Assembly: GCA_902619265.1 (NCBI GenBank)
Contig: CACNDL010000001.1
Coordinates: forward strand, 62,001 to 126,000
Reading direction: 5' to 3'
Source: an uncultured SAR86 cluster bacterium
GTDB taxonomy: Bacteria > Pseudomonadota > Gammaproteobacteria > Magnimaribacterales > TMED112
DNA: 64,000 nucleotides
Made by a program: the position numbers and the translations under genes. This document shows, piece by piece, positions 25,611 to 27,757 of this stretch. Every line of letters starts with the position of its first letter. Position 1 is the first letter of the stretch. The notes under the pieces were generated by a model that was given only the letters and a program-made list of their open reading frames with translations, searched no databases and had not been told where the DNA came from.

Positions 25611-25647
25611 CTCCAAAAAACATAAAAATAGTTATATATTTAGATTG

Positions 25648-25813
25648 TCTGAATCATTAGGTTTTCAGAATTTATTCTAGAACCGATAATGTAAATTAAG
25701 GGAAACAGATTTTATTTAGCTGTGCGTTACTTTTTCGATAGGGAAGCCTTACTAAATAAAAGAGTTGCCCACCTGTCCTTAGGGTTCAGGGTGACTGGAA
25801 ACAATGATTCAGA
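25648..25813 (+). ncRNA. ssrS: 6S RNA
   Basis: Perfect 11-bp terminal stem TCTGAATCATT (25648-25658) / AATGATTCAGA (25803-25813); internal GGGAAGCCTTACTAAA and CACCTGTCCTTAGGGTTCAGGGTGACTGG resemble E. coli 6S; located zapA-ssrS-fau. Confidence 0.88.
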
Positions 25814-26349
25814 TGTCTAAGTTAAAAATTAGAAAGTATTTCATAGAACAGAGAGATAAACTTTCTACAGAAAAGAGAATTCTTTTAACTTCAAAAATTA
25901 ATAGAAACCTCGAACTTCAAAAAGAATATATTGTTGCTAAAAACATAGCTAGTTTTAGGGCTTTCAGAAATGAACCTCAGCCAACTCAACTAATAAATAA
26001 AATTTATCATTATCCAAAAATTTCTAAAGCTGGATTAACTTTTCATACAGATAGCAAAGGTTTCAAACTAAACAAATATGGAATAGAGGAACCAATTGAA
26101 AAACAGTCAATACCACTTAATGAAATAGATATTTTCCTTGTCCCGCTGATATCTTTTAATAAAAATCTGCACCGAGTGGGTTTTGGAAACGGTTATTACG
26201 ATAAAACTTTAAGCCAATTGCTTGGAATAGCCGATAAACCAAAATTTTGGGGGATTTGTTACGATTTTCAATTATCTGAGACTAATTTTGAAACAGAGTT
26301 TGATGTAAGATTAGATAGAGTGATCTCTGATAAAAAAGTCTATGTCTGA
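25813..26349 (+). CDS. fau: 5-formyltetrahydrofolate cyclo-ligase family
   Basis: MSKLKIRKYFIEQRDKLSTEKR; VPLISFNKNLHRVGFGNGYYDKTL; alternative ATG at 25804. Confidence 0.93.
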   Translation: MSKLKIRKYFIEQRDKLSTEKRILLTSKINRNLELQKEYIVAKNIASFRAFRNEPQPTQLINKIYHYPKISKAGLTFHTDSKGFKLNKYGIEEPIEKQSIPLNEIDIFLVPLISFNKNLHRVGFGNGYYDKTLSQLLGIADKPKFWGICYDFQLSETNFETEFDVRLDRVISDKKVYV

Positions 26350-27001
26350 AAAATATAATGCTGCTTTAGGCGCTTATGAATTAATAGCAAAAGGTAAGGA
26401 GCCATTAATATTAGGCATTGGAACTGGTAGTACAGCTGATCAGTTTACGGAACATTTCCTCCCAAAATTAAGAAAAAGAATAAATGAAGTTTTTTCCAGC
26501 TCCGATAGAACAACAAATCTATTAAAGAATTTAGGTTTTCGAGTAAGTGATTATGACCCTGAGGTTGGTCTGGATTTCTACGTAGACGGTGCTGATGAAG
26601 TCGACGAAAATCTTAATTTAATAAAAGGTGGTGGTGGTGCCCATACTAACGAAAAGAAGCTAGCTAAAATTGCTGAAAGTTTTATATGTATAGTAGATGA
26701 ATCAAAAATTGTTCAAACTCTTGGAAAGTTTCCTCTTCCCATTGAAATTGATATTAATCAGAATGACAAAGTATTATTTGAGCTAAAAAAGTATTCAAAA
26801 ACCATTCTTCGCAGAGAATTATTGAGCGATAACAATAATTATATTTATGATCTTCATGACTTTAAAATTTCTGACCCTAAAAAAATTGAAACTGAAATTT
26901 TATCAATAACTGGTGTAGTAGACGTTGGCATATTTGCTATTAATAAGCCACAAATAGTTATTGTTGGAGAAAATTCAAGTTACAGATTGATTGAATCTTG
27001 A
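26342..27001 (+). CDS. rpiA: Ribose-5-phosphate isomerase A
   Basis: LGIGTGSTADQF, DFYVDGADEVDENLNLIKGGGGA, KLPIEID-like FPLPIEI. Confidence 0.97.
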   Translation: MSEKYNAALGAYELIAKGKEPLILGIGTGSTADQFTEHFLPKLRKRINEVFSSSDRTTNLLKNLGFRVSDYDPEVGLDFYVDGADEVDENLNLIKGGGGAHTNEKKLAKIAESFICIVDESKIVQTLGKFPLPIEIDINQNDKVLFELKKYSKTILRRELLSDNNNYIYDLHDFKISDPKKIETEILSITGVVDVGIFAINKPQIVIVGENSSYRLIES

Positions 27002-27507
27002 ATTGCAGAAACAATTAAATCGTCTTCAGGATCAATCCTATGTGAAAAGCTTTTGATATTACCTTCAGGCGTGATTAGGTATTTATGAAAGTTCCAAGAA
27101 GGCCTATCACTTGTTAACTTATATAATTTTTTGTAAAAAGGGTGATTTGTTGAATTTTTTACGTTTGTTATTGAAAATAATGGGAAGGAAACATCGAAAG
27201 TTGATTTACAAAACTCACTTACTTTTTCTTCATCATTAAATTCTTGGCCTAAAAAATTTCTAGATGGAAAACCCAAAACTGTAAATTTTTTGTCTTTGAA
27301 TCTTCTTTGTAAGGATTCGAGCTGTTCGTATTGATATGTAAAACCACACTTGCTTGCTGTATTAACTACAAGTATTGTGTGGTTATCGTACTCACATAAA
27401 TTTTTAAGTTGATTTTCGTTTAAAACTTTTACATCTGTATCAAGCAAATCACTACAAGGAAATGCACTAAAACTAAAAAAGATTGCGAATATAACAAGTT
27501 TTTTCAT
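26980..27507 (-). CDS. Glutathione peroxidase family protein with N-terminal signal peptide (Cys-type)
   Basis: VVNTASKCGFTYQYEQLESLQRRF, LGFPSRNFLGQE, WNFHKYLITPEG. Confidence 0.93.
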   Translation of the reverse strand: MKKLVIFAIFFSFSAFPCSDLLDTDVKVLNENQLKNLCEYDNHTILVVNTASKCGFTYQYEQLESLQRRFKDKKFTVLGFPSRNFLGQEFNDEEKVSEFCKSTFDVSFPLFSITNVKNSTNHPFYKKLYKLTSDRPSWNFHKYLITPEGNIKSFSHRIDPEDDLIVSAIQDSINL

Positions 27508-27528
27508 ATTTTTACCTAGGGTGTTATT

Positions 27529-27612
27529 TTAGACTGATGAGATACCAAGTAAAAGCACTGCAAAAATCGTGAAGAGGATAACTAATTCTATGTTGTCTGC
27601 AAATTTTTCCAT
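27529..27612 (-). CDS. Small membrane ORF (27 aa), candidate
   Basis: MEKFADNIELVILFTIFAVLLLGISSV*; single hydrophobic segment; same strand and just upstream of gpx; preceded by a strongly structured leader. Confidence 0.45.
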   Translation of the reverse strand: MEKFADNIELVILFTIFAVLLLGISSV

Positions 27613-27631
27613 ACTTTCTCTTAAAATGCTT

Positions 27632-27680
27632 GGGGCCGAAGCCCCTCGCGTGTCAGTCATGGGGGAGAGGAGAGACTGAC
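27632..27680 (-). promoter_or_regulatory. Candidate structured 5' leader RNA
   Basis: Minus strand GTCAGTC-N15-GACTGAC followed by GGGGC-TTCG-GCCCC (C(UUCG)G-type tetraloop hairpin), immediately upstream of the 27-aa ORF. Confidence 0.5.
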
Positions 27681-27688
27681 TAATACAA

Positions 27689-27710
27689 ATATAATAAATA
27701 TTTATTATAT
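27689..27710. repeat. 22-bp perfect AT palindrome
   Basis: ATATAATAAATATTTATTATAT. Confidence 0.9.
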
Positions 27711-27721
27711 AATATCAATAG

Positions 27722-27754
27722 TTTTTATAAATAAATACTACTTATTTATAAAAA
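27722..27754. repeat. 13-bp perfect inverted repeat with 7-nt loop
   Basis: TTTTTATAAATAA-ATACTAC-TTATTTATAAAAA, just downstream of the L,D-transpeptidase stop. Confidence 0.9.
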
Positions 27755-27757
27755 TAA

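Follow-up and report, generated by a model that had tools for sequence, protein, structure and literature searches.

What are the four consecutive inverted repeats upstream of gpx, and do they belong to a single element? In the window (the whole 64,000-nucleotide stretch of DNA analysed here, which lies on contig 1 of a 0.97-Mb assembly), each repeat is present where the original prediction had placed it, at 27632-27645, 27652-27680, 27689-27710, and 27722-27754. The claim that this much structure stands out was likewise borne out, and all four repeats exceed chance: in 300 dinucleotide shuffles of the gap 27508-27757, a 5-bp all-GC hairpin with a 4-nt loop was found in 0.3%, 7-bp stems with 4 or more GC and a loop no longer than 20 nt in 1%, and an 11+11 palindrome or a 13-bp repeat in none (0/300). 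The 64-kb window contains no other palindrome as long as the 22-bp one at 27689-27710, and apart from the 13-bp repeat it has no inverted repeat with arms of at least 12 bp and a loop of at most 10 nt. The window has 33% G+C; the gap falls into two halves, one A+T-rich (27689-27757) and one G+C-rich (27628-27680), and the four repeats do not form one structure. As argued below, the locus very likely holds a real, conserved, and so far uncatalogued small RNA (sRNA) gene.

A search for gpx in 21 genomes of the genus yielded 20 clear orthologs. At 20/20 of these loci, the gpx strand carries a promoter-like sequence followed by GTCAGTCTCTCCTCTCCCCC, GACTGAC, and then the GGGGC..GCCCC hairpin, and both G+C-rich hairpins (27652-27680 and 27632-27645) are kept in all 20 genus members with the ortholog. 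As for the A+T-rich repeats, the 22-bp palindrome is shorter or missing in congeners and is not conserved as a repeat; the 13-bp repeat has a perfect copy in just one other genome, and its arm TTTATTTATAAAAACTA is conserved directly upstream of the -35 hexamer while the other arm is not. Both overlap the sequence TTGATA-N16-TATTAT, a conserved promoter in this A+T-rich part (the original prediction had included a promoter), with the palindrome spanning the promoter spacer and the -10 hexamer; TATTAT or TATAAT is found at the -10 place in most relatives. The A+T-rich repeats are best read as promoter DNA; a regulator site is possible, and the perfect repeats look incidental to the species of the window and one relative.

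The features of the locus are as follows, where f1 is the family of the window and f3 a second SAR86 family, represented by 107 genomes from 10 genera.

27719-27738, minus strand: A+T-rich element TTTATTTATAAAAACTA, which abuts the -35 hexamer, is kept in most congeners, and forms one arm of the 13-bp repeat; possibly an UP element or a regulator site.
27713-27718, minus strand: -35 hexamer TTGATA, matching the consensus and kept in most copies in both families.
27691-27696, minus strand: -10 hexamer TATTAT, after a 16-nt spacer and inside the palindrome.
27652-27680, minus strand: sRNA hairpin 1, a 7-bp stem with the C-rich loop UCUCCUCUCCCCCAU; the stem covaries across the two families.
27628-27649, minus strand: sRNA hairpin 2, GGGGC-UUCG-GCCCC plus outer GC pairs, the putative terminator stem; present in all congeners and covarying.
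27622-27627, minus strand: weak terminator tail AUUUUA, with a U-tract far shorter than in deeper relatives.
27529-27612, minus strand: gene for a 27-aa membrane mini-protein (MEKFADNIELVILFTIFAVLLLGISSV), with a homolog between sRNA and gpx throughout f1 and at the f3 loci examined.
26980-27507, minus strand: gpx, encoding a glutathione-peroxidase family protein of the Cys type (Pfam GSHPx, 2e-27), linked to the sRNA in f1 and f3.

Judged from sequence, hairpins 1 and 2 would be the two hairpins of one ~60-nt minus-strand RNA, with a putative transcription start at ~27681-27684. The minus-strand fold of 27622-27683, which comprises both hairpins, has an energy of -24.4 kcal/mol (z = -3.6). 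In deeper members of the genus (L016-L018, L021-L023), hairpin 2 is soon followed by 6-9 U, which settles the strand and marks hairpin 2 as a probable intrinsic terminator. The tail appears weak in the window's own lineage: the window's hairpin 2 is followed by AUUUU only, and a terminator scan gave it no score. Because of this weak tail, some read-through into the mini-ORF and gpx would be expected. Two other readings of the hairpins were rejected. A plus-strand RNA with a GGGGGAGAGGAGA loop containing CsrA-like GGA motifs was discarded because the conserved promoter and the U-tracts are those of the minus strand. A longer mini-ORF of 43 aa (MTDTRGASAPSILRES...), with an N-terminal extension that would run across both hairpins, is in frame in some congeners only, shifted in one (G007), and absent in f3; because this frame is not kept, we conclude that the hairpins are not coding.

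The first 20 nt of the sRNA (GTCAGTCTCTCCTCTCCCCC) have zero changes among 20 congeneric genomes, and because this block is invariant while synonymous sites in the ORF just downstream have a pS of 0.60 among the same genomes, the block must be under strong constraint. In the GACTGAC arm, three genus genomes have a G-U pair. An alignment of f1 alone gave no covariation, its sequences being too alike. A covariance model built from the genus detected a divergent form of the sRNA in f3, which has GTCAGCA-CTCCTCTCCCCCTATN-TGCTGAC, then an unrelated G+C hairpin (GGAGGGC..GCCCTCC type) and a U-rich tail; the stems in other genera or copies are CTCAGCA/TGCTGA, ATCGGCA/TGCCGAT, TCCAGCA/TGTTGGA, ACCAACA/TGTTGGT, GTCAGCT/AGCTGAC, and GCTAGCA/TGCTAGC. 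The f3 stems vary with compensation, and the loop core remains C-rich (CUCUCCCC type). When 32 sequences are aligned, double-sided changes appear in 13 of 15 pairs, and there are 54 covarying cells vs. 14.2 in shuffles, which ignore relatedness and never matched this number (0/500), and 4-10 in slid controls, which keep relatedness. The check for conservation and covariation proposed in the original prediction was strongly positive for both G+C hairpins, and the promoter hexamer TTGATA is also kept in both families. With its stem covarying freely and its unpaired loop core nearly invariant, hairpin 1 looks like a seed for pairing with other RNAs.

With a second model at E of at most 1e-3, the sRNA was detected in 20/21 f1 genomes and 97/107 f3 genomes; one of these 97 matches (G085) is a generic terminator only. 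Where records with this RNA carry a name, they are SAR86 cluster bacteria, including TMED112, MED-G83, AG-349-I13, and the complete TMED112-A1. GTDB TMED112 corresponds to CHAB-I-7 and D2472 to the Suzuki lineage, and the two have a common origin (PMC11582366); f1 and f3 fit TMED112 and D2472, and f3 is presumably D2472, judging by its genus count and size. The SAR86 isolate that has been published falls in a different family (PMC11582366). The sRNA is absent from the two other SAR86 families, f2 and f4, which gave nine and two matches, respectively, with weak scores in the second model. Of five f2 matches examined, three are without the C-rich loop and two (G046 and G060) are a possibly related C-rich hairpin. 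The hairpin at these two loci (L281 and L280, respectively) is GTCAGCATTTCTCTCCCCTGAAAACTGCTGAC, with a C-rich loop and without the family's promoter or terminator. Beyond the order, a sample of 365 gammaproteobacterial genomes gave no convincing match, and the best of the class-wide matches that were examined were ordinary terminators without a C-rich loop. An 18-mer occurs in five records of other groups, without the hairpin, and viral contigs and phage records gave no match to the sRNA. A scan of the window and five relatives with Rfam 15 returned only tRNAs above the curated cut-off; the near-matches S774, snR9, and rli36 were dismissed as far below it (the best, S774, with 22 bits vs. 48). 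In the literature and Rfam searched, no small RNA regulator of SAR86 was found described. Elsewhere in the window, 6S RNA (RF00013) was matched at 25643-25819 on the plus strand, between zapA-like and 5-formyltetrahydrofolate cyclo-ligase genes; with 44.3 bits vs. the Rfam cut-off of 46.4 (E 5.6e-8), it is missed at the gathering threshold.

In both f1 and f3, sRNA, mini-ORF, and gpx follow one another on the minus strand and face a convergent rpiA. Upstream of the sRNA, f1 has ldt on that same strand, and f3 has a fadB-like gene on the opposite one. At the f2 and f4 loci examined, the ldt-gpx gap is only tens of bases, without sRNA or mini-ORF. The co-occurrence of sRNA and mini-ORF agrees with a single origin in an ancestor shared by f1 and f3. 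The mini-protein is 25-33 aa long across relatives and consists of a single hydrophobic helix; the 27-aa protein has no Pfam match. With a pS of 0.60 and a pN of 0.10 in f1 (pN/pS 0.17 in f1 and 0.44 in f3), it is under purifying selection. A second small membrane-type ORF (MKEYMNNLFSFCKEYPVWAAVFFSFGYLIGEIYVV and relatives) lies between sRNA and mini-ORF in L016-L018 and L021-L023, i.e. in deeper genus members only.

Several f3 genera have a second copy of the sRNA with its own TTGATA promoter and terminator and with no gpx following; these copies adjoin the 3' end of a convergent sbcB-like gene, and a tRNA gene is near in two loci. Because these copies stand alone, they are the best evidence that the sRNA acts in trans and not only as a leader, and it likely does so through the C-rich loop. 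Our working hypothesis, to which we assign a probability of roughly 0.7, is that the gene encodes an Hfq-independent antisense sRNA whose C-rich loop pairs with other mRNAs, with read-through to the mini-ORF and gpx and a link to stress. Specifically, the sigma-70-type promoter (27691-27718, minus strand) would start the RNA, hairpin 1 would display the C-rich loop (UCUCCUCUCCCCC), and hairpin 2 would terminate the transcript. The loop would pair with G-rich stretches of the GGGGAGA type, mostly where ribosomes bind other mRNAs, and would alter the translation of those mRNAs independently of Hfq. Part of the transcripts would read through the weak terminator into the mini-protein gene and gpx, for which they would serve as a leader. 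Because of this read-through past the weak tail, the sRNA would be produced jointly with a peroxide-detoxifying enzyme, probably as part of an oxidative-stress response; a role of the sRNA in oxidative stress is plausible. As to Hfq, an Hfq-dependent sRNA would require the protein in its host, and none was found in 21 genus genomes, which are incomplete drafts with four at least 90% complete; the control search was positive in 5/14 named genomes, including E. coli and B. subtilis.

Alternatively, the RNA could be a cis-acting leader only, in which hairpin 2 attenuates the mini-ORF and gpx and a protein or RNA binds the C-rich loop. We consider this unlikely as a full account: it agrees with the constant position before the mini-ORF and gpx in the two families and with a U-tract that is weak both in the window and in close relatives, but not with the copies that have their own promoter and terminator where no gpx follows, nor with the strong U-tracts in deeper f1 members. 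For the main copy taken alone, which the mini-ORF and gpx always follow at the loci examined, a leader role could suffice.

If the antisense hypothesis holds, sites complementary to the loop are candidate targets. Genome-wide, there were 168 matches, of which 20 are the sRNA itself, vs. 131 for the reversed control, so that enrichment is not clear; before ATG, there were 137 vs. 80, a mild enrichment that ordinary Shine-Dalgarno sequences could explain. In five congeners (L328, L344, L349, L350, and L351), UAGGGGAGAAAAUUAUG is the ribosome-binding site of a gene that we take, from its sequence and known features of the family, to encode proteorhodopsin, and the predicted duplex with the loop has an energy of about -14.7 kcal/mol. 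Within the stretches examined, a proteorhodopsin gene was not located in the window's own genome. GGGGAGAGACATG is found at true start sites in two congeners (L307 in G009; the same string at G016:C9:25744) and in G009 precedes a probable TonB-dependent receptor gene (-17.1 kcal/mol). Both may simply be good Shine-Dalgarno sequences, and we regard these sites as leads rather than as evidence of regulation. GGGGAGA-N-ATG sites within the window were rejected because they lie inside coding genes and are not start sites. A more specific proposal built on the two leads, that the RNA is a light/oxidative-stress regulator that tunes phototrophy and nutrient uptake by pairing with the proteorhodopsin ribosome-binding site and the TonB-receptor start, from a transcript that also makes the mini-protein and the peroxidase, seems to us quite doubtful.

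Even less probable is that hairpin 1 is a protein-binding site or sponge, with the RNA titrating an RNA-binding protein that recognises the C-rich loop. The near-invariance of the loop would fit such a role, but a candidate binding protein was not identified, and the length and 3' half of the loop vary between genera with the pyrimidine core alone constant, as expected of a pairing seed. Finally, the original prediction itself, in which the repeats are unrelated DNA and terminator elements of the flanking genes (an ldt terminator, an operator, and a leader), is almost certainly wrong as a whole: the two A+T-rich repeats do stand out in the window, yet neither is conserved, both G+C hairpins covary as RNA, and the sRNA unit exists in f3 without ldt upstream. 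Its ldt terminator is wrong or at least unsupported: relative to the sRNA promoter, the G+C hairpin is downstream, where it would end the sRNA; no terminator after ldt came out of the scan; and in f3 the gene upstream of the RNA is divergent and not ldt. Of its leader, the structured minus-strand RNA upstream of the downstream genes stands, with conserved and covarying hairpins; what it had overlooked is that the RNA has a gene of its own, with further copies at other places, and that a conserved mini-ORF lies between this gene and gpx.

The antisense hypothesis has precedents. With a short structured RNA, a conserved unpaired C-rich loop, and a probable terminator, the SAR86 sRNA has the structure of the antisense sRNAs with C-rich loops. 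sX13 of Xanthomonas needs no Hfq to act on G-rich motifs close to start codons, and its loop 3 has UCCCCCU in common with RepG/HPnc5490 of Helicobacter pylori (PMC3771888). Like sX13 and RepG, the SAR86 sRNA is short and highly structured with an exposed C-rich loop, and UCCCCCU also occurs in f3 copies (CUCUCCCCCUA). By contrast, sX13 consists of three stem-loops, whose loops are 4C/5C, and has not been described beside gpx, whereas here there are two hairpins, one with a C-rich loop and one that is the predicted terminator; Rfam searches gave no match linking the SAR86 sRNA to the sX13/RepG sequences. GsrN of Caulobacter pairs through a C-rich 5' loop with the katG leader and raises the peroxide enzyme KatG (PMC5869019). 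The C-rich loop and the connection to a peroxide enzyme are similar; GsrN, however, is alphaproteobacterial and controlled by sigma-T, whereas in SAR86 the sRNA gene and gpx are physically linked, and the promoter is sigma-70-like. CcsR1-4 and other cuckoo RNAs of alphaproteobacteria have C-rich (CCUCCUCCC) anti-Shine-Dalgarno loops on variable stems (PMC8307010, PMC10253847), SmelA075 and SmelA099 being examples of cuckoo RNAs (PMC3927594), and the CcsR RNAs affect the glutathione pool, function in stress, and are co-transcribed with a small-protein gene (PMC8307010, PMC10253847). The C-rich loop on a variable stem and the linkage to a small-protein gene are again alike. However, those sRNAs follow a DUF1127 gene and occur in tandem or as several CCUCCUCCC-loop hairpins, whereas the SAR86 sRNA is single, with one hairpin per copy and the loop CUCCUCUCCCCC or a variant, and precedes an unrelated membrane mini-protein without a Pfam match. 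By analogy with these systems, we infer an antisense regulator that is expressed together with an oxidative-stress enzyme. SAR86 bacteria are among the most abundant in the surface ocean and have small genomes, and the linkage of sRNA, mini-protein, and peroxidase in a genus without detected Hfq makes post-transcriptional control testable from existing metatranscriptomes. If supported, it would add another independent case of C-rich-loop sRNAs beside oxidative-stress functions.
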